Source: Bacteroidales bacterium (GTDB lineage Bacteria; Bacteroidota; Bacteroidia; Bacteroidales; UBA932). From it: a stretch of 46,270 bases of DNA. Within the stretch, counting starts at the first letter, position 1. Every line of letters begins with the position of its first letter. The notes beneath the pieces are model-generated. The model ran no database searches, was not told the DNA's origin, and worked only from the letters and a program-made list of their open reading frames with translations. Location of the stretch: contig JAFYLU010000013.1 of the NCBI GenBank assembly GCA_017550025.1, forward strand, positions 1 through 46,270, read 5' to 3'. Shown here in pieces: positions 17,157 through 43,789 of the stretch. A program made the translations under genes and the position numbers.

Positions 17157-17189
17157 AACAAAAATGTTATCACTATAAACATTTTTGTT
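17157..17189. promoter_or_regulatory. Paired AACA-N4-TGTT site A, upstream of mscS
   Basis: AACAAAAATGTT (17157-17168) and AACATTTTTGTT (17178-17189) start exactly 21 bp apart and are perfect reverse complements, so the site is also a 12-bp inverted repeat. Each unit is itself a palindrome at its ends (AACA/TGTT). The 37-base plus-strand sequence from 17157 matches site C at 33 positions. It lies 42 bases upstream of the mscS start. A hairpin reading is possible here but not for site B, which favours a protein-binding site. Confidence 0.6.
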
Positions 17190-17231
17190 TTACAGTATCT
17201 TTTACAAGCATTTATATAGTTTTGGATTTAT

Positions 17232-18140
17232 ATGTACAATTTGCTGCAGACACAACCCGTTGACTCGATCAACATACAGGAACAGCTGGCATTTGTGGCT
17301 GAAAAACTTTCCACAACCCCTGTCACAACTCTTTTTGAGGAGTTTGTCGACATGGCTGTATCCTTTGGCCTGAAGCTTCTGACCGCGATAGTCATCTATA
17401 TTGTCGGAGCATGGGTTATCAGAAAGACAAAGACGGTAGTCACTAAAATATTCGAGAGAAAGAAGACAGACGCCGCCATCGCATCGTTCATACAGAGCAT
17501 CATCACCATCTCAATGATGGTCGTACTTGTAATCATCACCATCGGTGCTGTCGGAATCGACACCACTTCACTTGCTGCCCTGCTTGCCGGAGGAGGTATG
17601 GCAATAGGTATGGCACTTAACGGAACCGTCCAGAATTTCGCAGGCGGCATAATGATAATCGCATTCAAGCCATTCAAGGCCGGAGATTACATAGAAGCAC
17701 TCGGATATGAAGGTACTGTAAGCGAGGTGAATATTGTCAGCACGAAGCTCACGACTACAGACAACAAGATCATTATCCTTCCTAACGGTGCATTGTCCAA
17801 CGGCTCGATCAGAAACTTTTCAGAGCGCAAGCTCCGTCGCGTAGAATGGACAGTATGTGTCGAGTATGGCTCTTCCGCAGATGTCACCAAGGAACTGCTC
17901 ATGTCACTCATGAAGAATGACCCGCGAATACTCACCAATGCTGATGCCCCGGCAGATCCGTTCGTCGCATTGAGCGAACTTGCAGACAGCAGCGTGAACT
18001 TCATTATGCGCGCATGGGTATGTTCAGGAGATTACTGGAGCGTGAAGTTCGAGATGAACGAGAAGATATATGCGCAGCTTCCTGAAAAAGGAATCAATTT
18101 CCCGTTCCCACAGATGGATGTGCATGTCCACAAGGACTGA
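17232..18140 (+). CDS. mscS: Small-conductance mechanosensitive channel, MscS family
   Basis: This 302-residue inner-membrane channel opens on osmotic downshock to release solutes. Two N-terminal membrane helices (about 45-70 and 90-115) precede the Gly/Ala-rich pore helix (LAALLAGGGMAIGMALNGTVQNFAGG, about 117-142). The beta domain GDYIEALGYEGTVSEVNIVSTKL and the cytosolic alpha/beta domain ending VHVHKD follow. Length and order match compact MscS proteins. TAGTTTTG at 17217-17224 could be its minus-seven box, close to the ATG, and paired site A lies just upstream. A strong hairpin terminates the gene. Confidence 0.92.
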   Translation: MYNLLQTQPVDSINIQEQLAFVAEKLSTTPVTTLFEEFVDMAVSFGLKLLTAIVIYIVGAWVIRKTKTVVTKIFERKKTDAAIASFIQSIITISMMVVLVIITIGAVGIDTTSLAALLAGGGMAIGMALNGTVQNFAGGIMIIAFKPFKAGDYIEALGYEGTVSEVNIVSTKLTTTDNKIIILPNGALSNGSIRNFSERKLRRVEWTVCVEYGSSADVTKELLMSLMKNDPRILTNADAPADPFVALSELADSSVNFIMRAWVCSGDYWSVKFEMNEKIYAQLPEKGINFPFPQMDVHVHKD

Positions 18141-18157
18141 TCCAACAGACAGGAATA

Positions 18158-18203
18158 AATAACAACCGCCCGGAAACTGCTTCAAGTCCGGGCGGTTATT
18201 ATT
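18158..18203. terminator. Bidirectional terminator between mscS and the acyltransferase gene
   Basis: AATAACAACCGCCCGGA (18158-18174) pairs with TCCGGGCGGTTATTATT (18187-18203) at 16 of 17 positions around a 12-base loop. The GC-rich core is flanked by AT-rich arms and a T-rich end, serving the two convergent genes. Confidence 0.85.
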
Positions 18204-18218
18204 TTGTAATTCAAGATG

Positions 18219-19409
18219 TTAGAGAAGAACTTCTCCTGTCTCTTTTTCTTTTGCAAGAACCTCTTTTGAAACAACCGGATTAGCATATATCTCAAGGAAT
18301 ACCTTGCGAAGCTCATCCCTGTCAAGCTCTGGCTCTACAGTAGCTAACTGATGCTCCATATATGCAACGAACTTCTCGACATCAGCCTGCTCATACTTGT
18401 CTGAATATCTGGTACTCTGATTAAGTATGTCGTATGCCACATAATTGTTCTTCCACAATCTGTATCCTTCGACCACGCGGATGTCGACAGCGTGTCTGAT
18501 AAGCTGATAACGGTCATTCTTGTCGCAGAGGGCAGCCTGCGCGATCTCCTCGCTTGTAAGAGGCTTTCCGATATTAAGGTGAATGTTTCCTTTAGGCTGC
18601 ATGAGACCAACCATGATGCTGTTGAGGTCTTCGCCTTCTGCCTTGACATATTTCTTCTGACGCGAGATGACGATTTCTCTGGCTTTCAGGATGTCACATG
18701 GCTCGATCTCATAGGAAATACTCATAGGAATGATATTCAGCTCCTCGAAATTCTGCTTGAAGTCAGCCTTTCCGCTCATATCAAGCATCTTCAAAAGGCC
18801 CTGCTCTGTAACATCATAGCCATTCTTGGTTCTTCCCTGCCTCTGGGCGAGCCAGATCGAACTTCTCTGCTCTGTTATGTTAAGCCTTATATATTTCGAA
18901 AGCATCTGCGAAGAAAGATAGAGCTCTCTCGCGGAAATACCTCGCACTACCTTGATCATTCTGTTGGAACGGATCAGATATTCGATAGCCTTGTTGGTGA
19001 TCAAGTTGTCACCGACAGCGATTTCAGTCATAGGTATACCGTTGGTATACAATACAAGCTGTGTGATTGCCGGATCAAGAATGATGTCTCGATGATTTGA
19101 AAGAGCAAGGAACTTCTTGTCAGGATCGATATTTGAAATTCCGTCATATGAGAAGTTGTGCGCTGTATGCTCGATCACCCAACGGACAAGCTTCTGCATC
19201 ACAAGAACCTGGAATTCATCTATTGTCTTTATGCTCTTGAGGATATTCTTCAGGTACTCTGGCGACTCATCCGGAAAGAAATGCTGGGATGCACCTATCA
19301 CCAAAGGATAATCCGCAAGCTTGCTCAACGCCTCTGCCGCCTCGGCATCAGTATAAGGACTGATGCTCTGAAATTCTGATAAATCAACCATACGTTCAGG
19401 TATATACAT
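18219..19409 (-). CDS. PlsC-like 1-acyl-glycerol-3-phosphate acyltransferase family protein
   Basis: This 396-residue protein has the acyltransferase block NHRDIILD at 105-112, and further motifs around VVRGISAREL and IWLAQRQGRTKNG, the latter resembling the EGxR-type block. The usual motif is H-x4-D; here the candidate Asp is at H-x5-D (H106, D112), or D108 may serve instead. The role is likely phospholipid or lysolipid acylation at the inner membrane; the acyl acceptor is unknown. The start at 19409 is taken because it follows a consensus promoter; an ATG at 19391 is an alternative. Confidence 0.75.
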   Translation of the reverse strand: MYIPERMVDLSEFQSISPYTDAEAAEALSKLADYPLVIGASQHFFPDESPEYLKNILKSIKTIDEFQVLVMQKLVRWVIEHTAHNFSYDGISNIDPDKKFLALSNHRDIILDPAITQLVLYTNGIPMTEIAVGDNLITNKAIEYLIRSNRMIKVVRGISARELYLSSQMLSKYIRLNITEQRSSIWLAQRQGRTKNGYDVTEQGLLKMLDMSGKADFKQNFEELNIIPMSISYEIEPCDILKAREIVISRQKKYVKAEGEDLNSIMVGLMQPKGNIHLNIGKPLTSEEIAQAALCDKNDRYQLIRHAVDIRVVEGYRLWKNNYVAYDILNQSTRYSDKYEQADVEKFVAYMEHQLATVEPELDRDELRKVFLEIYANPVVSKEVLAKEKETGEVLL

Positions 19410-19421
19410 TAGTTCAATCTG

Positions 19422-19451
19422 CAAATTTAAAATCTTTTTGCAAAATAGCAA
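19422..19451 (-). promoter_or_regulatory. Promoter of the PlsC-like gene
   Basis: On the minus strand TTG (19449-19451), a 19-base spacer and TAAATTTG (19422-19429) match the consensus, 12 bases before the ATG. It lies in the gap after queA, so the acyltransferase gene can be transcribed alone. Confidence 0.65.
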
Positions 19452-19477
19452 GCATCAGCCCACCCTTTTGTCCCGGT

Positions 19478-20692
19478 TCAGGCCTGCCTTCTGAAAAGAA
19501 CAGAACTGTCTCCGTAACTCAAGAAGCGGAAATCATGTTGCAGAGCAAAATCATAAATTTTCTTCCAGTCACCGCCCACAAAAGCAGAAATAAGCAGCAG
19601 AAGGGTACTTTGAGGCTGATGGAAGTTAGTCACAAGCACATCGACAATGCGGAAACGGAACCCCGGCACTATTATTATCCTCGTGCCGGACTTCAGTTCT
19701 GTCAGTCCTTTAGCCCTCATATAATCCGCTATTGCGTTCAGCGCTTCTTCTGTCGAATATGGATATTCCCTCTCATAAGGAGCCCATTGACATACATCTG
19801 AAGGTCTTCCTTCCTCTATGCAGCTTACACCTATATAATATAAGGACTCAAGGGTCCTGACCGAGGTTGTGCCCACGGCTGCTGTCTTCCCCTTACATGC
19901 AATAAGCTTCTCCAGAAGTTCAAGGGTCACCACGAAAGGCTCCCTGTGCATGGCATGTTCTGAAACAAGAGAACTCTTTACAGGCAGGAAAGTACCAGCT
20001 CCGACATGAAGACACACTGTTTCTGTCTCAATATTGCGTGCCTTTATCCTTTCCAGCACCCTTTCTGTAAAATGAAGTCCTGCAGTAGGGGCGGCTACAG
20101 ATCCTCTGAACCTTGCATAGAGTGTCTGATAACGTTCCAGATCGACAGCTTCCGTGTCTCTGTTGAGATACGGAGGTATAGGAATGGATCCGCAGACCTC
20201 CAATACCTTCGAGAAAGGAGCCCCGTCAGACCAAGTGAATTCTACAATTGAGGTCTCTCCGCATCTCTCGACAAGAGAAGCACGAAGATCCATGGACTTT
20301 ATTTCCTGCGAATCATAAGGATTGTACAAATGCAGGACATCATTCTTCCAGCGCTTGACATTACCGACAATGCACTTCCATCTGCATGAACCGACAGCTG
20401 CGAACATGCTGACATATTCTTCTGGCATTACTGGCTCAAGACAGAAGATTTCTATATGCGCGCCTGTTTCACGCTGAAAATGCAGACGGGCAGGAACTAC
20501 CTTTGTATCATTGAAGATCATAAGCGAGCCTTCCGGCAGATAATCGGGGAGTTCAGCAAACTTATGCTCGGTTACTGTTCCATCCGAATATCGGAGAAGT
20601 CTGGATGCATCTCGTTCTCCTAAAGGATATTTTGCAATCCTTTCATCAGGTAAATCATAATTATAATCTTCGATTCTTATTACTGGTATCAT
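19478..20692 (-). CDS. queA: S-adenosylmethionine:tRNA ribosyltransferase-isomerase QueA
   Basis: This 404-residue enzyme transfers the ribosyl part of SAM to preQ1 in the wobble position of tRNA, giving epoxyqueuosine. The family blocks are all present: DYNYDLPDERIAKYPL near the start, RDASRLL, IFNDTKVVPARL, SVAAPTAGLHFT, HVGAGTFLPV, AVGTTSVRTLESL and VTNFHQPQSTLLLLISAF. The start at 20692 (MIPVIRIEDY) matches the family; a further in-frame start at 20722 overlaps a TATTTTTG box (20712-20719). No other queuosine genes are in the window. Confidence 0.93.
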   Translation of the reverse strand: MIPVIRIEDYNYDLPDERIAKYPLGERDASRLLRYSDGTVTEHKFAELPDYLPEGSLMIFNDTKVVPARLHFQRETGAHIEIFCLEPVMPEEYVSMFAAVGSCRWKCIVGNVKRWKNDVLHLYNPYDSQEIKSMDLRASLVERCGETSIVEFTWSDGAPFSKVLEVCGSIPIPPYLNRDTEAVDLERYQTLYARFRGSVAAPTAGLHFTERVLERIKARNIETETVCLHVGAGTFLPVKSSLVSEHAMHREPFVVTLELLEKLIACKGKTAAVGTTSVRTLESLYYIGVSCIEEGRPSDVCQWAPYEREYPYSTEEALNAIADYMRAKGLTELKSGTRIIIVPGFRFRIVDVLVTNFHQPQSTLLLLISAFVGGDWKKIYDFALQHDFRFLSYGDSSVLFRRQA

Positions 20693-20722
20693 CTGACAAT
20701 GTTTTATCCTGCAAAAATACAT

Positions 20723-21287
20723 AAAAGAAGGGAAAATACTAAATTGTCAGAGGTAGCGTTTATAATCAAGATATCATCAATACTTAATGAGAATTGTATA
20801 CAGCTGATATATCCGACAATTCGTCGGAAATACTTTATTCTCGCCCGATTTACAAAAGTAAATACAAATTGCGGTTACATTTTAAAATCATGGTATTCAT
20901 ATTTGTAAATATAGTGTAACCTTGCTATTATCGTATGTCTTATTTTGTAATCAGTTGCAAATGTGATATAATTTTTTCTTATAGTGTATTTAATGGGTAT
21001 CATATTTAGTTGATTCTCTGCTATTTATGTAGTTTATATTATAGTAATTAATAAGGTAAATTGTGTCAATAAGGCAGAAAACATAGAAAATAGCTGTCAT
21101 TTGGCTTCAAAAGTACTTGTTATCTATTATCATATCCATATATATCAGATATTTAGATATTGCTATATAAAGTATAGTATAATGTTATTTCAAGTCTATA
21201 CCTCTCCCTATTTACATATGTATACTGTAAATTTACTTTCATTTTCAAAATATTATTATTACATTTGTGACATAATTGTATACAACG
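20723..21287. other. AT-rich intergenic region with TGTATAC boxes and small palindromes
   Basis: About 565 bases between divergent queA and the XRE regulator gene, clearly richer in A and T than the neighbours, with no credible coding frame. It holds three GTATAC sites: TTGTATACAG (20794), ATGTATACTG (21218) and the perfect palindrome TTGTATACAA (21276-21285), which touches the XRE start. Other symmetric elements are ATTTAC-AAAA-GTAAAT (20848-20863) and GGTTACA/TGTAACC (20873-20921). TACATTTG at 21260-21267 is a minus-seven candidate for the regulator. Confidence 0.55.
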
Positions 21288-21740
21288 ATGAATACGAGAC
21301 TTAAACAATTCCTTGCTGCTGAAAATATCACGCAGGCACACTTTGCAGACACTATCAATGTTGTGCGTGCGAGCGTTTCGCATGTACTGTCTGGAAGAAA
21401 CAATCCGAGCTTTGATTTTGTCAAGGCAATGATGATCCACTACCCTGACCTTAATATCGAATGGCTCATGTTCGGCAAAGGAAAGATGTACAAGGAAAAG
21501 ACTGCGGCAGAAATCCCTCTCCCCGATCCATCTCCTGCATGTGATCAGCTTTTCCCAGATATCGAGACGGAAGTGCCTTCAGGAGTCTCGAATCCCGTAC
21601 AGGAAATAAAAGACGAGCGGAATTTTGAACCCACAACAGTACTCAACACTTTAGGTAACACTATGCAAAGTGCTGAAAAACAGAGGAAAGTATCTAAAAT
21701 ACTGATACTTTTTGATGATGGTACATATCAAGAAATGTAA
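21288..21740 (+). CDS. XRE-family helix-turn-helix regulator
   Basis: This 150-residue protein has a Cro/C1-type HTH at residues 5-60 (LKQFLAAENITQAHFADTI and RASVSHVLSGRNNPSFDFV), followed by a conserved stretch HYPDLNIEWLMFGKGKMYK. The C-terminus RKVSKILILFDDGTYQEM is typical of a chromosomal XRE protein widespread in Bacteroidales, so it is probably not a phage repressor. The start at 21288 (MNTRLKQF) is preferred over a TTG at 21276, which lies within a perfect TTGTATACAA palindrome. That palindrome and two similar boxes upstream could be its own operators. An intrinsic terminator follows the stop. Confidence 0.85.
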   Translation: MNTRLKQFLAAENITQAHFADTINVVRASVSHVLSGRNNPSFDFVKAMMIHYPDLNIEWLMFGKGKMYKEKTAAEIPLPDPSPACDQLFPDIETEVPSGVSNPVQEIKDERNFEPTTVLNTLGNTMQSAEKQRKVSKILILFDDGTYQEM

Positions 21741-21741
21741 G

Positions 21742-21769
21742 AAAGTGCTGCTTCCAAGCAGTACTTTTT
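21742..21769 (+). terminator. Intrinsic terminator of the XRE gene
   Basis: AAAGTGCTGCTT and AAGCAGTACTTT form a 12-bp stem with one G-T pair, directly followed by a T-run (through 21769). It starts two bases after the stop codon. Confidence 0.8.
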
Positions 21770-21798
21770 GTATATTTGTATGATTAAACCCTATTAAT

Positions 21799-22833
21799 AT
21801 GTACAAGCATCTTATCAGACCTATACTTTTCAGGTTCAACCCTGAAACTGCACACAATCTCACTTTCTCCGGACTGTCATTCATCAGGCACATTCCGTTT
21901 GCAAAGTCAATTGTCCGTTCTATATACAAAAAAGCCACTCCAAAGCTTGAGAGAGAGGTTTTCGGCATTAAGTTCCCGAATCCGGTCGGTCTGGCAGGAG
22001 GTCTTGACAAGAATGGAGAATACTATAACGATATGGCAAATTTCGGCTTCGGTTTCGTCGAGATCGGATCCCTTACCCCTCTTCCGCAGGATGGTAATGC
22101 AAAGCCGAGATGCTTCAGAGTCCCTGGCGACAAGGCCATCATAAACCGTTTCGGCATCAATAACAAGGGTGTGCTCAACGCTGTGGAGCATCTCAAGAAA
22201 AACCGTCCGGAGGTTATAGTAGCGGCAAATATCTCGAAGAATACAACCAGCATAAACGAAGACGCAGCAAAGGATTATGAGAAGGGATTCGGCCTGCTTT
22301 ATGACTTCGTGGACATGTTCGTAATCAATATTTCATGTCCTAATGTAGTGGGACTCACTGCGTTGCAGGACATTTCATTCCTTTCGGAAATCGTCGACAA
22401 ACTCCTTGACCTGAGGATGTACTACGATAACTATCGTCCGATTCTCCTCAAGGTTTCCCCAGATCTTTCCCACCAGCAGCTTGACGAGATCATCGACTAC
22501 TGTCTCCGTTCAGGAATCGACGGTATCGTGGCCGGCAATACGACAAGAAGCAGAGACGGCCTTACCAGCATCTCAAAGGAAAAGATCGAGGAAATCGGCA
22601 ATGGAGGAATGTCAGGAGCACCTTTATACAAAAAGAATCTCGAGCTCGTGAAATATGTTCATGCAAGGTCAGAAGGCAAGCTACCTATCATCGGAGTCGG
22701 CGGAATCATGTCGCCTGAACAGGCAAAGGAAATGCTTGACGCAGGAGCTTCGCTCATAGAGATCTATTCGGGATTCATCTATGAAGGACCTGCCCTTATC
22801 AAGAACATCAACAAATATCTGGAAACCCATTAA
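21799..22833 (+). CDS. pyrD: Dihydroorotate dehydrogenase, class 2 (quinone)
   Basis: This 344-residue FMN enzyme oxidises dihydroorotate to orotate in pyrimidine synthesis. The N-terminal helical extension (about 1-45, with FRFNPETAHNLTF) that docks to the membrane is the mark of class 2, and the electron acceptor here would be menaquinone. FMN and substrate blocks are seen: NPVGLAGGLDKNGE, SLTPLPQDGN, NRFGINNKG, GNTTRSRDGL, IIGVGGIMS. The catalytic-base position reads NISCPN (C180), where classical class 2 enzymes have Ser. The gene lies one base before cinA, and a TATATTTG box lies at 21771-21778. Confidence 0.92.
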   Translation: MYKHLIRPILFRFNPETAHNLTFSGLSFIRHIPFAKSIVRSIYKKATPKLEREVFGIKFPNPVGLAGGLDKNGEYYNDMANFGFGFVEIGSLTPLPQDGNAKPRCFRVPGDKAIINRFGINNKGVLNAVEHLKKNRPEVIVAANISKNTTSINEDAAKDYEKGFGLLYDFVDMFVINISCPNVVGLTALQDISFLSEIVDKLLDLRMYYDNYRPILLKVSPDLSHQQLDEIIDYCLRSGIDGIVAGNTTRSRDGLTSISKEKIEEIGNGGMSGAPLYKKNLELVKYVHARSEGKLPIIGVGGIMSPEQAKEMLDAGASLIEIYSGFIYEGPALIKNINKYLETH

Positions 22834-22834
22834 A

Positions 22835-24109
22835 ATGACGCAGGCTTCGATTTGCACCATTGGAGACGAAATCCTGATAGGACAGATAGTCGACACGAAT
22901 TCATCACATATCTCCCAGTCTCTCAACACTTTGGGAATCCGGGTGACAAGAATGCTCTCTATCGGTGACGAGCATGATGTGATTGTGGATTCGCTTACAG
23001 GAGAGCTTGAAAAGAACGATATCGTGATCGTTACAGGAGGGCTCGGACCGACAAAAGACGACATAACAAAAGACGCACTTGCCCGTCTGTCCGGAACTTC
23101 AAAGTTCAAGACAGATGAAAGACAGCTTGAAATAATACACAGGATATTGAGTGCAAGAGGACTCGATGTACTTGACATCAATATCGCCCAGGCATCGGTT
23201 CCTGACACATGCGATGTGATTCCGAACAGGCTCGGCACTGCACCTGTCATGGTTTTCCGCTTTCCGGAGGAAAGATTCGGCCACAAGGCCACTCTATATT
23301 CCCTGCCAGGCGTGCCATTCGAAGCTCTGGGAGCCCTTCCTGACATACTTGAAGACATCAGGAAGCATAATTCCATATCCGACATACATCATCAGACCAT
23401 AATGACCTTCGGCATAGCGGAATCCGCACTGGCGAAGCTCATAGAAGGATGGGAAGACAGCCTTCCTGCTGACATGCATCTTGCATATCTGCCGAATCAG
23501 CTCACAGGGGTAAGATTGAGACTCTCTATATATGGAGGAATAAAGGAGGAAGAAGAAGCAAGAATAAAGGCTGAATTCGACAAACTGGGACCTGTTCTCG
23601 GGGACTATCTCTATTCGGATCATGATGATACTCTTCAGGAATGCGTAGGCAGACTGCTTGCCGGTTCCGGAAAGACATTGTCTGCAGCAGAATCATGTAC
23701 TGGCGGATTGATTTCATCCCTGATGACTTCGATTCCCGGATCGTCAGAATATTATCTCGGCTCCGTGACCTCATATGCAAACAGTGTCAAGACAAACGTA
23801 CTTGGAGTCGACGAAGATATCATAGCCAGACATGGGGCGGTAAGCAGCGAATGCGTGGCCGCCATGGCTGAAGGAGTGAGGAGACTCACCGGAAGCGACT
23901 ATTCCGTAGCAACATCCGGCATTGCAGGACCTGGAGGAGGCAGCGCAGAAAAACCGGTCGGCCTTGTATGGATTGGAGTGAGTTCTGCCAAAGGTACTGA
24001 AACCTTCAGCATGATCTTCAAAGGAGACAGAAAGCGTAATATCGAGCGTTTTGCAGCTAATGCACTGAATAAACTGAGAGTTATACTTGTTAACGAGGTA
24101 ACACATTAA
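22835..24109 (+). CDS. cinA: CinA family protein (MoCF-like domain plus NMN deamidase domain)
   Basis: This 424-residue protein has two domains. The N-terminal molybdopterin-binding-like domain (1-170) carries TIGDEILIGQIVDTN and VTGGLGPTKDDITKDALA. The C-terminal PncC-like domain (about 260-424) carries AAESCTGGLISSLMT, the Ser/Cys-rich site of NMN amidohydrolases, then SGIAGPGGGSAEKPVGLVW. It is expected to act in pyridine nucleotide salvage; a link to competence is historical. The start at 22835 (MTQASICTIGD) follows the pyrD stop by one base and fits the family; an upstream start at 22781 lies inside pyrD. Confidence 0.9.
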   Translation: MTQASICTIGDEILIGQIVDTNSSHISQSLNTLGIRVTRMLSIGDEHDVIVDSLTGELEKNDIVIVTGGLGPTKDDITKDALARLSGTSKFKTDERQLEIIHRILSARGLDVLDINIAQASVPDTCDVIPNRLGTAPVMVFRFPEERFGHKATLYSLPGVPFEALGALPDILEDIRKHNSISDIHHQTIMTFGIAESALAKLIEGWEDSLPADMHLAYLPNQLTGVRLRLSIYGGIKEEEEARIKAEFDKLGPVLGDYLYSDHDDTLQECVGRLLAGSGKTLSAAESCTGGLISSLMTSIPGSSEYYLGSVTSYANSVKTNVLGVDEDIIARHGAVSSECVAAMAEGVRRLTGSDYSVATSGIAGPGGGSAEKPVGLVWIGVSSAKGTETFSMIFKGDRKRNIERFAANALNKLRVILVNEVTH

Positions 24110-24123
24110 AACACATCATATAA

Positions 24124-24156
24124 AACATTTTTGTTTATGATTTAAACATTTTTGTT
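24124..24156. promoter_or_regulatory. Paired AACA-N4-TGTT site B, upstream of the EamA gene
   Basis: AACATTTTTGTT occurs twice in the same orientation at 24124-24135 and 24145-24156, starts 21 bp apart as in sites A and C. Because both units read the same way, their T-tracts cannot pair as a full hairpin, which argues for protein binding rather than a terminator. The site is 84 bases upstream of the EamA-family start and 14 bases after the cinA stop. Confidence 0.6.
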
Positions 24157-24240
24157 ACATCAAATCTGTAAACAATAAGAACCTCTTATATAAAGCCCTG
24201 AAGCACTGATAACCAATCACTTAAACACGAGGAAAGATAC

Positions 24241-25167
24241 ATGAGCCTAGCGCACGCCAAATACGAGAAAAAACAGAAAAGGATAAGGATAAACGGCATC
24301 TTCTATGCCATAATCTCATCTGCATCCTTCGGTTTTTCCCCTTTGTTCAGCCTCAGTCTGATAGCTGCTGGACTGTCAAATTTTGACGTGCTTTCATATA
24401 GATGGGGAGTAGCGGCTGCAGCCCTGATGATATATGCTGCATGCAAGAAAAAGAGTCTGCGCCTATCCTCATTCGACGAAGCGTGGAAGATAATTCTCCT
24501 CAGCGCATTAAGGGCAATCACTTCCGTGACACTCCTTATCGGTTATGCAAACATTGCAAGCGGCGTGGCTTCTACAATCAATTTCATGTATCCCGCGATT
24601 GTTGCATTCTGCATGATGTTCTTCTTCGGAGAACACAAATCCCCGGTGACTATCGGATGCATAGCACTATCTATATTGGGAGTCTATCTGCTCGCCTCCG
24701 GTGACGGACTTGCAATAGAAGGAGGAGACACCACCATAGGTCTCACCTGTTCGATCATATCAGCCTTCGCATTTGCAGCATACTATATTTTCATGAAGCG
24801 TCTGAAGGCAGACAAGATAGAAGCCGTCAAGTTCACGACATGGCTCATGCTCCTGAGTACCGTATATTTCCTTGCATGCGGATTTATCTTCGACGGAAAA
24901 ATAACGCTTGTGACAGGAACAAAGGAATGGATGAATATTGCCGGACTCGGACTTTGGGCGACAATGGTATCGAACTTCACCGGCGTGAAGGCTGTAAGAA
25001 GGATCGGACCGACATTCACATCCATCCTTGGCGCATTGCAGCCGCTGACAGCAGTGATACTCGGAATACTTTTCCTCAATGAGCATCCGAGTCTGAAGAC
25101 ATTTGCGGGCATATCGATCATCCTGATAACCGTGACCATGATCGTCGCCCACAAACGCAAGAAATAG
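24241..25167 (+). CDS. DMT superfamily EamA-type transporter
   Basis: This 308-residue inner-membrane protein has ten predicted hydrophobic helices in two EamA repeats. The first covers about 14-150 (FYAIISSASFGFSPLFSLSL, NFMYPAIVAFCMMFFFGEH); the second 165-303 (TCSIISAFAFAAYYIFMKRL, LGALQPLTAVILGILFLNE). It is a likely exporter of metabolites or amino acids; the substrate is unknown. The N-terminus is strongly basic and cytosolic (YEKKQKRIRING). It converges with the dipeptidase gene, leaving five bases between stops and no terminator. Paired palindromic site B lies upstream. Confidence 0.87.
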   Translation: MSLAHAKYEKKQKRIRINGIFYAIISSASFGFSPLFSLSLIAAGLSNFDVLSYRWGVAAAALMIYAACKKKSLRLSSFDEAWKIILLSALRAITSVTLLIGYANIASGVASTINFMYPAIVAFCMMFFFGEHKSPVTIGCIALSILGVYLLASGDGLAIEGGDTTIGLTCSIISAFAFAAYYIFMKRLKADKIEAVKFTTWLMLLSTVYFLACGFIFDGKITLVTGTKEWMNIAGLGLWATMVSNFTGVKAVRRIGPTFTSILGALQPLTAVILGILFLNEHPSLKTFAGISIILITVTMIVAHKRKK

Positions 25168-25172
25168 CCAGA

Positions 25173-26231
25173 TCAGGCACCCAGGACACGCAGGAAGTTG
25201 GTTCCGGCAATCTTTTCTATATCTGATTCGGAATATCCTCTGTATCGAAGCTCATCAAAGAGGACAGGCATCATGGAAATGTCCTCGAGCCCACTTGGAG
25301 TCACCTCAATTCCGTCAAAGTCAGATCCCAGTCCCACATGGTCAGTCCCCACAAGGCTTACAGCATGATCGATGTGATCAGCAATACGTTTGTACGACGG
25401 ACGAGGCAATGCCATAAGCTCATCCTGCACAGCATTCCATGCAGCCCTCTTGACAGGATCAGAAGGATCCTTTATGAATTCTGACTCTATAGCTTCTCCC
25501 CTTTCCATAATACCTGATTCCGCCAGAATGCTGCCGAATCCATTGTCAAGAAAGAGAGGATAGAAATTAATCTGAATCACTCCCCCTGTACGGGCAATCC
25601 GTACAATCATTTCATCGGTCATATTGCGCGGATGATTTGCCAGAGCCCTGCAGCAAGAATGCGTAGCTACGACCGGTTTTGTCGAAAGGCCGACCACATC
25701 ATAGAAAGTCTCGTCAGATACATGGGAAACATCGACAAGCATTCCCAGACGGTTCATTTCTGCAACAACCTCCCGTCCGAACGGACTCAATCCATGCCAT
25801 GTCTTGTTTGCAGATGCGCATGAATCGCATATCTGATTGTCCGCACTGTGGCAAAGCGTCATATAGCGCACGCCTGCATCATACCAGCGCGCAAGCTCTC
25901 CAAGGTCATTTCCTATAGGAGATCCGTTCTCCAATCCCAAGAAGACAGAGAACCTTCCGGCTTTCTTGTTTTCCAAAGCCTGCATTGCGGAAACAGTAAG
26001 GACAGCCTTGTCATTCAGGCAACGGCTTACACCATCCAGCAAGGCAAGTGCATGAGAAGATGCTGCTGCAGAATCAAGGGATGCCGGGATATACAATGCG
26101 AAAAAAGCGCCGTCGACTCCCCCTCTTGCGAGCTTAGGAAAATCGACGTGCGCATGATCGTTATCCAGAGACATATCCCTGAGCCTTAAAATCTGCGAAG
26201 GTGTATCACAGTGAGAATCAAGGACAAACAT
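25173..26231 (-). CDS. Membrane dipeptidase-like (M19) zinc peptidase
   Basis: This 352-residue protein has the M19 metal ligands in order: H7 and D9 in DSHCDTP, the bridging Glu in LGLENGSPI, His in LVDVSHVSDE, His in ATHSCCRAL, and Asp in GSDFDGI. The family hydrolyses dipeptides, sometimes with D-residues. No signal peptide is visible, so it is probably cytosolic despite the family name. It ends the minus-strand run behind the GIN-domain gene, five bases after its stop. Confidence 0.9.
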   Translation of the reverse strand: MFVLDSHCDTPSQILRLRDMSLDNDHAHVDFPKLARGGVDGAFFALYIPASLDSAAASSHALALLDGVSRCLNDKAVLTVSAMQALENKKAGRFSVFLGLENGSPIGNDLGELARWYDAGVRYMTLCHSADNQICDSCASANKTWHGLSPFGREVVAEMNRLGMLVDVSHVSDETFYDVVGLSTKPVVATHSCCRALANHPRNMTDEMIVRIARTGGVIQINFYPLFLDNGFGSILAESGIMERGEAIESEFIKDPSDPVKRAAWNAVQDELMALPRPSYKRIADHIDHAVSLVGTDHVGLGSDFDGIEVTPSGLEDISMMPVLFDELRYRGYSESDIEKIAGTNFLRVLGA

Positions 26232-26236
26232 ATAGA

Positions 26237-27157
26237 TTACTTTCTCTTTGGATCGTTGGCCTTGATCAGTGTAGAGTTGACAACCCTTACGATATCCAGC
26301 ACAGGAGTCTGGGTGAAAGTCATCATAGCGCCTCCGGTAAGGTTTACCTGGATCTTGTCAGACACATTCATATAACACTTTGATGATCCGGTCTGTTCGA
26401 CAGAAGCTTCCACGACATTAAGAGTCTCGGCCTGAACAGTAGAGGTACCTGCAGCCTTGAGATTGACAGTCTGCGCATTTCCGATACAGATTATGTCTGC
26501 GCTTGAAGCTACTGAAAGGTCAAGTCTCGGTACATCCATAGTAGTCCTTATCTGTGCACTTCCTGCTGCATCGATGAACATTTCGCTGCCACCGGTCTGA
26601 TTGACTATCACTTCTGCATTATTACCGACCATCAAAGAGAGCTTATCAGTAACTGAAACGTTCAGATTTGCATACGCAGACTTTGTCAGTGCAATGTCCG
26701 CTGCAGCACACTTAAGGTTGAGTTTCTCGATTCGGGCATCATCATTCAGTTTCAGACCAAATGTCTCAATCCTTATTGTATCAGACTGCACAAGAACAGT
26801 CTTGCCATTGAGAGTCAGTGAATTGATTGTCGGTGCATATACTTCCGCTTCAAGAGCGGCAGCCAACAATTCCTTGCCTCTCATACGCTTCTTCAGATCC
26901 GGAGAAAAAGACTTCTTGTCAAGCATGATGTACAGTCCGCCTTCCTTGACATATGAGACAACATGAGAAGCGATCCTCTCATCCGCCTTTATCCTTACAG
27001 CATATCGATCGGAAGCTATAAGTCTTACGGTAAAATGCTCCGATACTTCCACAGATGCAAAGCCTTCGTAACTGAGGTTCTGCTCAACCTGTGACTGCGC
27101 TGATGCACATATAACTGAAATCAATGCTATCAGGCAGATCAGTAATATCTTCTTCAT
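26237..27157 (-). CDS. Secreted GIN-domain (DUF2807) protein
   Basis: This 306-residue exported protein has a signal peptide (MKKILLICLIALISVICASA) followed by FASVEVSEHFTVRL, the typical GIN-domain opening, and long stretches of short beta-repeats (INSLTLNGKTVLV, RLDLSVASSADIICIGNA, VNLKAAGTSTVQAE). The fold is a beta-helix, probably periplasmic or surface-attached. No function is known for most members; they are common in Bacteroidota. It lies 20 bases after rlmB and 5 before the dipeptidase gene, within the same transcript. Confidence 0.82.
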   Translation of the reverse strand: MKKILLICLIALISVICASAQSQVEQNLSYEGFASVEVSEHFTVRLIASDRYAVRIKADERIASHVVSYVKEGGLYIMLDKKSFSPDLKKRMRGKELLAAALEAEVYAPTINSLTLNGKTVLVQSDTIRIETFGLKLNDDARIEKLNLKCAAADIALTKSAYANLNVSVTDKLSLMVGNNAEVIVNQTGGSEMFIDAAGSAQIRTTMDVPRLDLSVASSADIICIGNAQTVNLKAAGTSTVQAETLNVVEASVEQTGSSKCYMNVSDKIQVNLTGGAMMTFTQTPVLDIVRVVNSTLIKANDPKRK

Positions 27158-27177
27158 ATGATTCTATACTTTAAATC

Positions 27178-27924
27178 TTACTTATTAATTCGCTGTCTTA
27201 CAGCCTCATACATCAACACAGCCGATGCAACAGAGACATTGAGGGAAGTGATTTCACCAGCCATAGGAATAGCGGCCTTATCATCTGCCAGCTCAAGCAT
27301 TGTCTGTGAGATTCCCTTTCCTTCAGACCCCATTATGATGGCACATGGTCCTGTCATATCCACATCATATATGAGGTTGTCTGTCTTTTCCGTAGCGGCT
27401 ACAAGTCTGAATCCGCTCTGCTTCAGGTAATATGCAGCAACACGAAGATTAGCCACCTTGCATGTGTCTATCCTCAAAAGCGCACCGGCAGAAGCCTTGA
27501 CAGCATCTGCATTAATAGCTGCACCTCCCTTTGCCGGCACGATAATACCGTTTCCGCCAGCACATTCAAGGCTTCGTGCGATAGCACCAAGGTTACGTAC
27601 ATCACTGACTCCGTCAAGAATAACAAGAAGAGGATTGTCTGTGCGAGCAAGAGCATTATTCACAAGCTGCTCTATATCAACATAATCTATCTGCGATATA
27701 TATGCAAGCACACCCTGATGAGAGCCTTTCACCGCCCTGTTCAACCTTTCGCCAGGAACAAACTGGAAAGGTATCTCATTGACCTTCAACAGCTCCATGA
27801 GCTCCCTGAACTGCTGTCCCTCAAGCCCCTGCTTAAGCAGGACCTTTTCAAACTTCTTTCCTGCCCTGACCGCTTCCAATACCGGATGCATGCCGAACAG
27901 ATACTGCATTTTCTTCTCTTCCAT
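27178..27924 (-). CDS. rlmB: SpoU-family rRNA 2'-O-methyltransferase RlmB
   Basis: This 248-residue SPOUT enzyme has the N-terminal substrate-binding domain (YLFGMHPVLEAVRAG, about 8-80) and the three SpoU motifs: LDGVSDVRNLGAIARS, IIMGSEGKGIS and SLNVSVASAVLMYEA. Members methylate the ribose of a guanosine in 23S rRNA (G2251 in E. coli). It is 20 bases before the GIN gene and 32 bases after the ABC-F gene, within one minus-strand run. Confidence 0.9.
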   Translation of the reverse strand: MEEKKMQYLFGMHPVLEAVRAGKKFEKVLLKQGLEGQQFRELMELLKVNEIPFQFVPGERLNRAVKGSHQGVLAYISQIDYVDIEQLVNNALARTDNPLLVILDGVSDVRNLGAIARSLECAGGNGIIVPAKGGAAINADAVKASAGALLRIDTCKVANLRVAAYYLKQSGFRLVAATEKTDNLIYDVDMTGPCAIIMGSEGKGISQTMLELADDKAAIPMAGEITSLNVSVASAVLMYEAVRQRINK

Positions 27925-27956
27925 ATGTGAAAATATTTAGCTTCTAAAATAATATT

Positions 27957-29891
27957 CTACCCAAGTGATTCATTCAGTTTCTCCCACTCCTCCATCTTGA
28001 AATCAAGTTCCCTCTTGTTTTCGAGATATGCCCTCGTGAGTTCCATTATGTCATCATCAGGACCCGGATCAGTAAGCTTGGCCTCAATCTCTGCCATCTT
28101 GGTCTCAATCTGCTCTATTCCCTTCTCCAAGAATGAAATACGGTTCCTTACCTTCTTTTCTTCTTTAGATACATATTTCTTCGTCTGATACTCCTGTCGC
28201 GCCTCTTCCTTCTTCTGCACCACCTCTACGGGCTTCTCTTCCACTGCAGGCTTATAGTGACGCTCAAGTTCATTCAGAGCCTCGATCTTCCTTCTCTCAA
28301 GGAATTCCTGAACACCACCCAGATGTTCCTTCACCTTTCCGTCTCTGAACTCGTAAAGCTTGTCGACAAGTCCGTCAAGAAAATCTCGGTCATGAGAAAC
28401 TATGATGAGAGTGCCGTCATAAGCCTTCAGCGCCTGCTTGAGAATATCCTTTGAACGGATATCCATATGGTTGGTAGGCTCGTCAAGGGCAAGGAGATTG
28501 TATGGCTTGAGAATGAGCTTCGCCATTGCAAGCCTCGCCCTTTCTCCACCGCTGAGCACTGCCACCTTCTTGTCGATATCCTCTCCCTTGAAAAGGAAGG
28601 CTCCGAGAATATCCCTGAGCTTAAGACGGATATCACCGACAGCTATGCGGTCCAAGGTACCGAATACGGTATCTTCCTTGTCCAATATATCTTCCTGATT
28701 CTGAGCATAATATCCGATATTGACATTATGTCCGACCTTGGATTCTCCATCCATCGGGTCAAGCTCGTTCATGATCACACGCATAAGAGTGGTCTTTCCC
28801 TCTCCGTTCCTTCCCACGAGAGCCACCTTCTCACCTCTTCTGACTTCGATCTGCGCATCCTCGAATACGACCTTCGTTCCGTATCCTACCTTCATGTCCA
28901 CTGACTTGTAGGCAATATCTCCGGAGCGCGGAGCAGGCGGGAACTTCACAGACAATGCGGACCTGTCTTCGATATCGATTTCTATCCTCTCAAGCTTCTC
29001 CAGCTGCTTTACACGTGACTGGACCTGATTAGACTTCGTAGGCTTGTACCTGAACCTCTCGATAAACTCCTCTGTCTTCTCTATCATCCTCTGCTGATTT
29101 TCATAAGCAGCCTGCTGCTGCGCCAGCCTTTCTTTACGGAGTTCCAGATACTTGCTGTATGGCACCTTGTAGTCATGAATCCTTCCGACCATGATCTCAA
29201 CGGTCCTGTTTGTCACATTGTCAAGGAACTTACGGTCATGGGAGATCAGCACCAGAGATCCCTTGTAATCCTTCAGATAATCCTCAAGCCACTCTATGGA
29301 CTCGATATCAAGATGGTTGGTAGGCTCGTCAAGCAGAAGGACATCCGGCTTCGAGAGAAGTATCTTTGCCAGTTCGATACGCATGTTCCATCCCTGGCTG
29401 AATGTCTCGGTCGGCCTCGACAACTCTTCATATTTGAATCCCAGACCTATCAGTGTCTTCTCCGCCATCACCTGCGGATTGTCCGACCTTGTGTAGGACA
29501 GGCGGTCATTCACCTCATTCATCCTTACAATAAGATCATGATATGACTGTGACTCATAGTCCTCTCTTTCGGACAGTTCCAATGTGATCTTTTCGAGTTC
29601 GGCCTCAAGGTCGAACATCTCAGCAAATGCAGTCATGGCCTCATCGATTACGCTTCTGCCACGATGATGCTCCATGATCTGCGGAAGATAACCGATCTTC
29701 ACACCGCTGGGAACAGCCACTTTACCGCTTGTCGGGGACTGAAATCCGCATATAAGCTTCAGGATGGTGGATTTTCCGGCTCCGTTCTTACCCACAAGGC
29801 CGATCTTGTCATTCTCGCTGATATGAAAGTTGATCTCATTCAGCAAGGTAAAGCCTCCGTAAGCAACAGTAAGATTATTGATGGATATCAT
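27957..29891 (-). CDS. ABC-F family ATP-binding protein
   Basis: This 644-residue soluble protein has two ABC ATPase domains. Walker A sequences are GLVGKNGAGKST and ALVGRNGEGKTT; Walker B regions are LLLDEPTNHLD and ALDEPTNHMD; the second signature is VLSGGERARLAM. The ABC-F linker (KSNQVQSRVKQLEKL) lies between the domains and a coiled-coil C-terminal tail (about 555-644) follows. There are no membrane segments, as expected for ribosome-acting ABC-F factors (Uup- or EttA-like), not transporters. Length suggests the Uup type. It overlaps tatC by four bases. Confidence 0.9.
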   Translation of the reverse strand: MISINNLTVAYGGFTLLNEINFHISENDKIGLVGKNGAGKSTILKLICGFQSPTSGKVAVPSGVKIGYLPQIMEHHRGRSVIDEAMTAFAEMFDLEAELEKITLELSEREDYESQSYHDLIVRMNEVNDRLSYTRSDNPQVMAEKTLIGLGFKYEELSRPTETFSQGWNMRIELAKILLSKPDVLLLDEPTNHLDIESIEWLEDYLKDYKGSLVLISHDRKFLDNVTNRTVEIMVGRIHDYKVPYSKYLELRKERLAQQQAAYENQQRMIEKTEEFIERFRYKPTKSNQVQSRVKQLEKLERIEIDIEDRSALSVKFPPAPRSGDIAYKSVDMKVGYGTKVVFEDAQIEVRRGEKVALVGRNGEGKTTLMRVIMNELDPMDGESKVGHNVNIGYYAQNQEDILDKEDTVFGTLDRIAVGDIRLKLRDILGAFLFKGEDIDKKVAVLSGGERARLAMAKLILKPYNLLALDEPTNHMDIRSKDILKQALKAYDGTLIIVSHDRDFLDGLVDKLYEFRDGKVKEHLGGVQEFLERRKIEALNELERHYKPAVEEKPVEVVQKKEEARQEYQTKKYVSKEEKKVRNRISFLEKGIEQIETKMAEIEAKLTDPGPDDDIMELTRAYLENKRELDFKMEEWEKLNESLG

Positions 29892-30667
29892 AAACTATCA
29901 TTCTTTAATATTTTGTTCTCACCCTTGCATATCAAAATGCTGAACTCAAAGAGCAGGTAAAGAGGGACAGTGCACACGAGCAGCGAAAAAGGATCTCCGG
30001 AAGGCGTTATCAATGCAGCCAGGATCACCACTATGCAGACAGCGTGTCTTCTATATGTACGCAGGGTCTCCTTCGAAATGATTCCCAATGCCGAAAGCAC
30101 TGCGACGACAGTCGGAAATTCAAATACGATTCCGAAAATCAGCACCGTCGACATGAACATCGAGATGTAGGAGCTCAACGAAAATGTATTCGCCACATCC
30201 GGACTCACCTGATAGCCGGCGAAGAAATTGAGCATCAGCGGAAATATAATGAAATAGCCCACAGCCAGACCTATATAGAACAGGAGCGAGGCAAATGAGA
30301 AAGCCCCTCGGACCGCCTTCTTCTCCTTTTCATAAAGAGCAGGGGCGATGAAGCGCCATATTTCATATACAAGGTAAGGAAGAGTTACAGCCAATGCGCA
30401 TACGAATGTCATCTTCATATGGATAAGAAACTGCGCCGAGACATCTATATTAACCAGGGACAATGAAAAATCCGCTCCCAGCAATCTGTAGAGGAAGAAA
30501 TCCTTTCCTGCAGGAGCCAGAATCACATCATCGAAAAGGAAGTCCTTGAAAAAGAACAGCCCGACTGTCGCGCATAAAAGCACTGCAACAATCCGGAATA
30601 TGCTTTTCCTCAAATCTTCCAGATGATCCCAGAATGTCATTTCCTTTTCCTGATCCGCCATAATCAT
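29888..30667 (-). CDS. tatC: Twin-arginine translocase subunit TatC
   Basis: This 259-residue inner-membrane protein has six hydrophobic helices. The N-terminal EMTFWDHLEDLRKSIFRI is the signature of TatC that binds the twin-Arg signal, including the conserved Glu (DHLEDLR). The periplasmic loop with FIAPALYEKEKK also matches. It exports folded proteins together with TatA, which is encoded five bases upstream. Its stop overlaps the ABC-F start in a four-base coupling. Confidence 0.93.
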   Translation of the reverse strand: MIMADQEKEMTFWDHLEDLRKSIFRIVAVLLCATVGLFFFKDFLFDDVILAPAGKDFFLYRLLGADFSLSLVNIDVSAQFLIHMKMTFVCALAVTLPYLVYEIWRFIAPALYEKEKKAVRGAFSFASLLFYIGLAVGYFIIFPLMLNFFAGYQVSPDVANTFSLSSYISMFMSTVLIFGIVFEFPTVVAVLSALGIISKETLRTYRRHAVCIVVILAALITPSGDPFSLLVCTVPLYLLFEFSILICKGENKILKNDSL

Positions 30668-30672
30668 CAGGA

Positions 30673-30885
30673 TTACTCTTCAGGATCTGACTTTATATCC
30701 TTCTTGATTTCATTTATATCTTCCTCGACTTCCTTCATTCCCTGCTTGAAGCTCTTGACTCCCTTGCCAAGACCGCGCATGAGTTCAGGAATCTTCTTGC
30801 CTCCGAAAAGAAGAAGCACGACGAGTGCGATTATAATCCATTCCCATCCATGGATGGCCAATGGAAGGATTGCCAATACATTCAT
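30673..30885 (-). CDS. tatA: Sec-independent translocase subunit TatA
   Basis: This 70-residue protein has one membrane helix (about 10-27, [17 protein letters not shown]), then the hinge and amphipathic helix [20 protein letters not shown] and an acidic tail. This is the standard TatA/TatE layout. There is no separate TatB here, consistent with a minimal TatAC system. It is followed five bases later by tatC and preceded by the thioesterase gene. Confidence 0.93.
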
Positions 30886-30896
30886 GATATTGATGA

Positions 30897-31304
30897 TTAT
30901 TGAATATGTTCTTCAAATATCCCGAGCAGCATTTGCGGGCACCTCACCGGCCTTCTTGTCTTTGAGTCGATAAAGCCAAGCTGTACTTCACCGCTGCAGA
31001 CCAGCTGTCCTGCCGGGTTATAAATCTCGGTCCCAATGACAAGTCTTGCCCTCGGTATCTGCTCTATGACCGAAACGATCTTCAAGGTATCGCCAAGCTT
31101 TGCCGGAACCTTATATTTGCATTCGACAGAAATGACCGGAAGCATAACACCGGCTTCCTCGATCCTTTCAATCGGCAGACCGAGCTTCTTGAGCATATCG
31201 GTACGTCCACACTCGAAATATCTTATATAGTTCGAGTGGTGGACGATACCCATCTGATCAGTCTCGTAATATCTGACATCCAGATAATGCTCGGTTTTAA
31301 TCAT
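30897..31304 (-). CDS. Hot-dog fold acyl-CoA thioesterase (YbgC/4-HBT family)
   Basis: This 135-residue thioesterase has the family motif [25 protein letters not shown] (residues 12-36), with the active-site Asp in TDQMG. Substrate is uncertain; family members hydrolyse 4-hydroxybenzoyl-CoA, short acyl-CoAs or the DHNA-CoA of menaquinone synthesis. A role as DHNA-CoA hydrolase is possible given the menaquinone genes 25 kb away, but not shown. It heads the tatA-tatC-ABC-F-rlmB-GIN-dipeptidase run. The ATG at 31304 is directly preceded by paired site C. Confidence 0.85.
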
Positions 31305-31337
31305 AACAAAAATGTTATCAGTATTAACAATTCTGTT
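31305..31337. promoter_or_regulatory. Paired AACA-N4-TGTT site C, touching the thioesterase ATG
   Basis: AACAAAAATGTT (31305-31316) and AACAATTCTGTT (31326-31337) start 21 bp apart. Read on the minus strand the site ends in AACATTTTTGTT directly followed by the ATG. It shares 33 of 37 positions with site A. Binding there would cover the start region of the whole downstream gene run. It begins three bases after the valS stop on the other side. Confidence 0.6.
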
Positions 31338-33986: not shown

Positions 33987-34209
33987 ACTATATATATTTC
34001 TATCTGTTATTAGACAAACTGCGGACATCATGCTTTTCGTTAAAGCACAATATCGTACAAATATAGCTATTTCTGCCGAGATTACATACCACAAGCGACA
34101 GAAATTAACGAATTGCACGGTTTACCTCTTCGAACATATAAATTCAGTTATTTTGATTAACTTTGCATATGACATTGGTCAAATACACATTATCATAATT
34201 ATCAAGAGT

Positions 34210-43063: not shown

Positions 43064-43789
43064 ATGGGACTTGGTAAATGGATAGCGGGAGCACTCGGAT
43101 GGGCCATGTTCGGGCCTATCGGCGGAATCCTCGGATATTACTTCGCTTCGAGAGTAGAGAAACTTGCTGAAGCGACTGTCGTCTACGGCGAAGACCAGAC
43201 ATGGAATCAGGGTCAGAGAAACAGCTTCCTCATGAGCCTTCTTGTCCTGTCTGCATCGGTCATCAAGGCAGACGGCAAGACCACATCACAGGAGATGGCA
43301 ACACTGCGCAGTTTCTTCACAAGGAACTTCGGAGCGCAGGCAGGAGGTGAGGCGGAAGAGATCGTAAGAGAGCTTCTGACCAAGGACTACAACCTCTATG
43401 AGGTTTGTGGACAGATCCGTTCATGTATGGACTACTCGCAGCGTCTGCAGCTTTTCCATTATCTGGTCTCTCTCGGTGCATGTGACGGGCTTCATCAGAG
43501 AGAGGTCGATGTCCTTGAGACCATCGCAACTTACATCGGCTTGTCAAAGGCAGAGGTGGATTCCATCTTCGCCCAGTTCAGGCCAAACAATGACAGTAAC
43601 TATCGTATCCTGGAGATCAGGCCGGACGCTACTGACGAGGAGGTGAAGAAAGCTTATCGCAAGATGGCTGTCAAATACCACCCGGACAAGGTCGCCACTC
43701 TTGGCGAGGATGTGCAGAAAGCGGCGGAGGAGAAATTCAAGGCCGTCTCACAGGCATACGAAGCGATCTGCCGCGAACGCGGAATGTAG
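43064..43789 (+). CDS. TerB-like and DnaJ domain protein (DjlA-like)
   Basis: This 241-residue protein has three parts. A Gly-rich N-terminus that may be a membrane-associated helix ([24 protein letters not shown]); an all-helical TerB-like domain (about 50-170); and a J domain (178-241) with the HPD motif at 206-208 (VKYHPDKV). It should act as a co-chaperone for DnaK at the membrane. It is the nearest gene upstream of the restriction enzyme, 51 bases away. Confidence 0.88.

Follow-up and report, generated by a model that had tools for sequence, protein, structure and literature searches.

Terminus organization by specific DNA sites is known in detail from gammaproteobacteria, and replication fork traps are known from a few clades. 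The fork trap sites of RTP are bound by two dimers each. Double operators of XRE phage repressors, such as OR1 and OR2 of phage 434, are AT-rich palindromes about two turns apart that are occupied by cooperating dimers. Here we describe a paired palindrome, AACA-N4-TGTT-N9-AACA-N4-TGTT (the doublet), which is present three times in a 46,270-nucleotide stretch of a Bacteroidales genome (contig JAFYLU010000013.1 of assembly GCA_017550025.1; the window means this whole stretch). The closest described systems are sites of the terminus region. PMC3330122 gives matS, the target of MatP, as a 13-base-pair (bp) site with 23 copies in 800 kilobases (kb) of Escherichia coli. Ter sites are polar and non-palindromic according to PMC6549158, and Kono et al. 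(PMC3025954) predicted dif in 19 of 19 Bacteroidetes. We found no such element as the doublet described in the literature on the terminus of Bacteroidetes, Bacteroidales, or Cryptobacteroides, fork traps, MatP, macrodomains, and dif motifs, as covered by titles and the openings of abstracts, with subscription papers and preprints outside the scope.

We are confident that the doublet is a real element that is strongly tied to the terminus region. As to what it does, we lean toward a terminus-domain landmark that works like matS, carries two dimers of a helix-turn-helix-type protein, and has an organizing role. According to this model, the doublet would mark the replication-terminus domain, usually with one to a few copies per genome and mostly within tens of kb of dif. 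Two dimers of one protein would bind the two 12- to 14-bp palindromes from one side of the DNA, at a spacing of 21 bp (two turns). Like matS, the doublet is symmetric, is located around dif, and is apparently indifferent to transcription.

The doublet clusters around a predicted dif site

Genomes, contigs, and loci are referred to below by our own handles (G, C, and L numbers). In G016:C2 (534 kb), the cumulative GC skew rises to the 140- to 150-kb bin and then drops to the end of the contig; this peak is the replication terminus. Searching for dif by likeness to the dif sites of E. coli and Bacillus subtilis gave nothing useful. The site-bearing contigs of G016, G099, and G073 share 22-mers in two stretches, one of which is 28 bp long with an 11-6-11 layout and lies at G016:C2:150,295 (150295 to 150322). 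One arm of this 28-mer resembles an arm of E. coli dif, and we predict that it is dif. Among 150 genomes of the same genus as the window (completeness of at least 85%), the dif pattern with up to two arm mismatches was found in 106, once in 101 and twice in 5 (G003, G017, G074, G095, and G114); the control gave 0.

We measured site-to-dif distances where both lie on one contig. The 62 pairs, from 33 genomes, had a median distance of 14.35 kb and a maximum of 111.8 kb, and 43 of them were at most 20.6 kb apart. These values, with positions entered by hand, apply to sites among the matches listed; they omit 12 genomes with listed sites and dif on separate contigs, the 44 of 150 genomes without a dif match, and sites on other contigs of the 33 genomes. 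For the eight genomes in which the size of the dif contig was known and one-mismatch sites were listed, we compared counts with chance, noting that three of the eight (G016, G099, and G073) had also been used for finding dif. We found that 21 of 30 sites lay on the dif contig, versus 2.98 expected from length. Within 20, 60, and 115 kb of dif, we counted 12, 18, and 21 sites, versus 0.47, 1.08, and 1.66 expected. None of 20,000 simulations reached these counts, the largest being 5, 7, and 8 at 20, 60, and 115 kb, respectively.

Gene order gave a similar picture. The genes flanking 75 of 89 sites map at most 125 kb from dif in G016 or G370; this placement is supportive only, because the reference stretches are rich in terminus. 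The site at G073 C35:84,824 lies 86 kb from dif, and its surrounding genes map 352 kb from dif in G016, where no site was found at the genes that flank it in G073. Here the site goes with the terminus and not with the gene. G370, which belongs to another genus, is a single contig of 2,657,245 bp with a dif-like site at 1,228,461 (three arm mismatches, the top match over the 400 kb examined) and a skew peak, within those 400 kb, near 1.27 megabases (Mb). Both of its genome-wide matches to the relaxed form AACW-N4-WGTT (the AACW form) lie 2.2 and 44 kb from the dif-like site. The inner sequence TGTTA-N7-TAACA occurs five times in the 400 kb, at 2, 6, 28, 66, and 107 kb from dif.

We also observed parB on the dif contig, 13 to 105 kb away, in G099:C2, G128:C2, G081:C88, G064:C4, and G182:C3. 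A partition gene close to the terminus would be unusual.

The doublet is rigid and typical of one family

The exact doublet was found in 120 of the 150 same-genus genomes, with 0 to 5 copies each, and the reversed pattern, used as a control, in none. In a scan of 61 relatives with one mismatch allowed, 31 of 37 same-genus genomes matched and the control gave 0. When the gap between the units was left free from N0 to N30, 70 of 75 among the matches listed had N9 by hand count; the exceptions had gaps of 1, 4, 12, 14, and 15, and the control gave 2 matches in the 61 genomes. These results agree with the initial annotation of the window, which had been made from sequence alone, in that the element is rigid, with both palindromic units turned to the same side of the helix; it is also conserved in relatives, which the annotation had named as a check.

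The profile of 99 sites reads R-W-AACA-W4-TGTT-W-N7-W-AACA-W4-TGTT-W-Y, and units with AACT or AGTT occur. We scanned five stretches with a weight matrix: G016:C2, 140 kb of G016:C4, 300 kb of G099:C2, G073:C35, and the window. Known sites alone came back, at 33 to 45 bits, and nothing scored between 14 and 33 bits; the result is partly circular, because the matrix derives from sites that have no more than one mismatch.

The AACW form matched in 41 of 295 genomes from the order (at least 90% complete, the window's own genome excepted): 2 in the genus, G287, G370, and G434 in other genera of the same family, and 36 elsewhere. Several of the matches outside the family lie in repeat arrays, and control matches of comparable size were seen in many genomes. 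The family thus has the element as a typical feature, and in the rest of this order it is not clearly present. As a separate observation, G207:C31, G309:C39 and C49, and contigs of G242, all outside the family, carry tandem or dispersed repeats that contain the pattern, some with a 21-bp period. These are probably unrelated to the doublet.

The window contains three doublets

The sites and the genes relevant to them are as follows (window coordinates).

17157..17189, no strand: site A, a doublet and perfect inverted pair of 12-bp units, in the gap between a Na/Ca-exchanger gene and mscS
24124..24156, no strand: site B, a doublet with both units in the same orientation, after the cinA stop codon
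31305..31337, no strand: site C, a doublet that takes up the whole space between valS (stop codon) and the thioesterase gene (start codon)
21276..21740, + strand: gene for an XRE-type helix-turn-helix protein, a weak candidate for the binder
22781..24109, + strand: cinA, adjoining site B
31341..34118, - strand: valS, adjoining site C

We confirmed that the three paired sites are real and beyond chance. The window has seven single AACA-N4-TGTT units, versus a mean of 0.67 in 100 shuffles, none of which reached 7, and six of the seven make up the doublets. With up to three mismatches allowed, three doublets were found versus 0.22 expected, and all three have 0 mismatches. The coordinates given in the initial annotation were exact, and the unit starts are 21 bp apart at every site. 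It had counted 33 of 37 bases shared by sites A and C; agreement is indeed high, and our hand count of the strings is 32 of 37. The arms of site C form an imperfect inverted pair. The annotation had also argued from the like orientation of the site B units that the element is no terminator, and in general this stood: when folded, site B lacks the hairpin, and a search for intrinsic terminators (a G+C stem followed by a T run) gave no terminator-like match at any of the three window sites.

It had further placed each site just upstream of a gene, which is true and one-sided, each site being at least as near to the 3' end of a second gene. Site A lies 39 bp after the exchanger stop and 42 bp before the mscS start. 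For site B, the distances are 14 bp from the preceding cinA stop and 84 bp to the EamA gene that follows. Site C lies 3 bp after the valS stop and directly before the thioesterase ATG.

In the window's own genome (G000; 2.62 Mb, 83.5% complete), we counted four exact doublets, of which the window contains three, and six doublets when one mismatch was allowed. The predicted dif has no match in this genome, the window included. Counterparts of the window genes in G016 lie 22 to 39 kb from the predicted dif, and cinA and valS orthologues lie near the predicted dif in G016, G099, G073, and G370. Copies of the doublet at the cinA position (site B) and at the valS/thioesterase position (site C) were also found in relatives. 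The EamA-type protein of the window was matched in three Bacteroidales genomes, of which two come from the rectum of goat and water deer; the genus may be Cryptobacteroides. The window also encodes, at 43064 to 43789, a protein that combines a TerB-like domain with a DnaJ domain.

Copies lie between convergent genes and inside coding sequences

We sorted 109 distinct sites (at most one mismatch, in the loci fetched) by mechanical gene calls. Convergent genes flank 29 of them, same-direction genes 32, and divergent genes 4; another 27 lie in called open reading frames (ORFs), and 17 are in unclear positions. A consistent promoter position was not found among these sites, given the convergent and intragenic copies.

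In 15 loci, the doublet lies in frame within mnmE (e.g., L087:5121). It falls in a variable stretch that runs from the G4 NKxD motif, visible in most rows, to the next conserved block. The peptide at the site varies among genomes save for N, V, N, and V, which are fixed by the DNA motif. The MnmE segment after NKxD, otherwise free in sequence, is a protein stretch shaped by a DNA landmark. One copy in G370 is located within rarA. Of the readable cinA 3' ends, 25 of 32 had a site when up to two mismatches were accepted (17 exact, 5 with one, and 3 with two, by hand count), many of these loci having been fetched because they have sites; in loci fetched for the XRE/cinA block irrespective of sites, the count was 9 of 16. 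The convergent placements, those after stop codons, and the in-frame ones in mnmE and rarA show that promoters do not explain the copies.

Arm complementarity is greatest in convergent copies

Of four variable arm pairs, a mean of 3.17 were complementary in convergent copies versus 2.16 in same-direction copies (P = 0.0004, uncorrected for kinship). The palindromes of convergent copies are extended outward, and three convergent copies that we folded gave strong stems of 14 to 19 bp. None of the 27 copies in called ORFs had perfect arms. Among 84 exact sites, 191 arm cells were paired versus 149 ± 10 in shuffles (the largest of 2,000 being 188), a difference that kinship inflates, and the excess resides in the convergent copies.

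An XRE-type protein is a weak candidate for the binder

Among proteins of at most 320 amino acids encoded within 75 kb of the G016 dif and recurring near dif in at least two of G099, G073, and G370, the only one of a DNA-binding type was the XRE protein. Its HTH_3 match is just below the Pfam cutoff, and its ORF starts with TTG, with the first ATG a few codons downstream. When gene and listed site are on one contig, they are 1.4 to 12.4 kb apart.

The protein was found in 18 of 18 genomes picked for exact sites and matched in 14 of 17 picked for having none. In the latter group it was missing from G067, G126, and G134, only a distant match was found in G116, and the recognition helix was altered in G121 and G087 (this reading leaves out G092, G158, G165, and G176). 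Several findings speak against it as the binder. G126 and G134 keep one-mismatch sites without an XRE match, a single AACW-form site is present in G287 (99% complete), where the XRE protein has no match, and relatives of the protein are common in the order in the absence of the doublet. We therefore regard the XRE protein as a weak candidate that is probably not the binder.

DISCUSSION

Four other explanations have to be weighed against a landmark that works like matS. A bound doublet might slow or stop forks near dif, as in Tus-Ter or RTP-Ter. A few high-specificity sites around the terminus would suit such a barrier, and two dimers per site would be reminiscent of RTP sites; the doublet is symmetric, however, so that forks would be blocked from both sides, and we consider a fork barrier quite unlikely. 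Closeness to the predicted dif would also suit an accessory or loading site for Xer recombination, FtsK, or an SMC complex. We think this very unlikely, since the distances from dif run from kilobases to 112 kb, the copy number is variable, and the sites have no polarity, whereas guides of the KOPS (FtsK-orienting polar sequences) type are polar and numerous. An RNA hairpin, chiefly a bidirectional terminator at convergent gene ends, would account for the more complementary arms and extended palindromes of the convergent copies, including the three that fold strongly. It would not account for the constant N9 spacing, the AAC and GTT fixed in both units, the ORF-internal copies (0 of 27 with perfect arms), or the window sites, which are not terminator-like and of which site B has no hairpin. 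We rejected it as the main function because the excess in arm pairing is inflated by kinship and confined to convergent copies, and we rate it as extremely unlikely; a terminator role may be additional at some convergent copies.

The initial annotation had proposed an operator of envelope genes. This was not supported: the feature common to the copies is closeness to the terminus and not the kind of downstream gene. An ordinary operator could still serve a small regulon whose targets lie near the terminus by chance, with the cinA-linked XRE repressor as its regulator. Sites A to C each precede a gene, rarA is preceded by a site in several loci, palindromes of this kind are bound by XRE proteins, and an XRE gene is linked to the sites. 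Yet some copies are flanked by convergent genes or sit within mnmE or rarA, the clustering follows position and not gene kind, and looser-form sites occur without an XRE match in G126, G134, and G287. We consider such a regulon highly unlikely, and the convergent and intragenic copies rule it out as a general account. The annotation had itself named sites with no link to gene starts, and many copies inside coding regions, as evidence that would count against an operator; the 29 sites between convergent genes and the 15 in mnmE are in part what it described. Some sites do lie upstream of genes, so regulation at a subset of copies is possible, for example at those upstream of rarA.

A number of findings weigh against a terminus landmark. 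Those upstream sites (rarA in several loci, and the 4 of 109 between divergent genes) are among them. In 12 further genomes, listed sites and dif are on different contigs. In G099 and in G370, skew peak and dif are about 40 kb apart, and a clean peak is absent from G073. By synteny, 14 of the 89 sites were not placed near dif, 8 of them for want of a mapped neighbor. Outside the genus, 7 of 24 genomes had one match or two when a single mismatch was allowed, and one of these was exact. Within it, 30 of 150 genomes have no exact copy, and of 22 such genomes that we rechecked, G018, G065, and G067 have none even at one mismatch, which suggests that the element drifts or is dispensable. The copies are few, 0 to 6 per genome versus the 23 matS sites that PMC3330122 reports for E. 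coli. Finally, the XRE protein is a weak candidate for the binder, and one that we doubt.

We hold it possible, short of probable, that a family of Bacteroidales has its own terminus-organizing system, in which a dedicated protein would act on a handful of two-dimer sites around dif, having evolved independently of MatP and matS, with few and highly specific sites that persist even within mnmE. If so, this would be an unrelated solution to terminus organization, with so few sites that one strain could lose all of them and with a binder that could be caught by a bait fragment. Doublets and the predicted dif together can serve as terminus locators in fragmented gut genomes. The landmark kept inside mnmE shows selection at the level of DNA running through a protein-coding gene.

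Comparison with known systems

Like parS, the target of ParB, the doublet is a short palindrome with a specific chromosomal position. It does not fit the parS consensus, TGTTNCACGTGNAACA, and canonical parS is present apart from it, on other contigs in the 14 same-genus genomes listed for both. We therefore ruled out that the doublet is parS, and ParB is unlikely to be its binder. With the 434-type double operators it shares AT-rich palindromes about two turns apart; unlike them, it is not tied to promoters and is clustered at the terminus. Doublet and dif/XerCD belong to the same chromosomal region, and the genus has a separate predicted dif. The two differ in that the doublet is multicopy with a 12-9-12 layout, whereas dif is 28 bp, 11-6-11, and present about once per chromosome. 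Ter/Tus and Ter/RTP are similar in having few protein-binding sites around the terminus. The doublet is symmetric, unlike the polar Ter sites (the tus and rtp genes were not searched for).

The closest likeness in our model is to matS/MatP of E. coli and Vibrio cholerae. The doublet is two palindromes at a fixed 21 bp, whereas matS is a single 13-bp site, and the 99-site profile does not resemble the 13-bp matS consensus. Because sequence, architecture, and number differ (MatP itself was not searched for), we say that the doublet may work like matS and not that it is matS. As with matS, its sites are concentrated in the terminus domain around dif, here a predicted one, and both are palindromic sites that are apparently independent of transcription.

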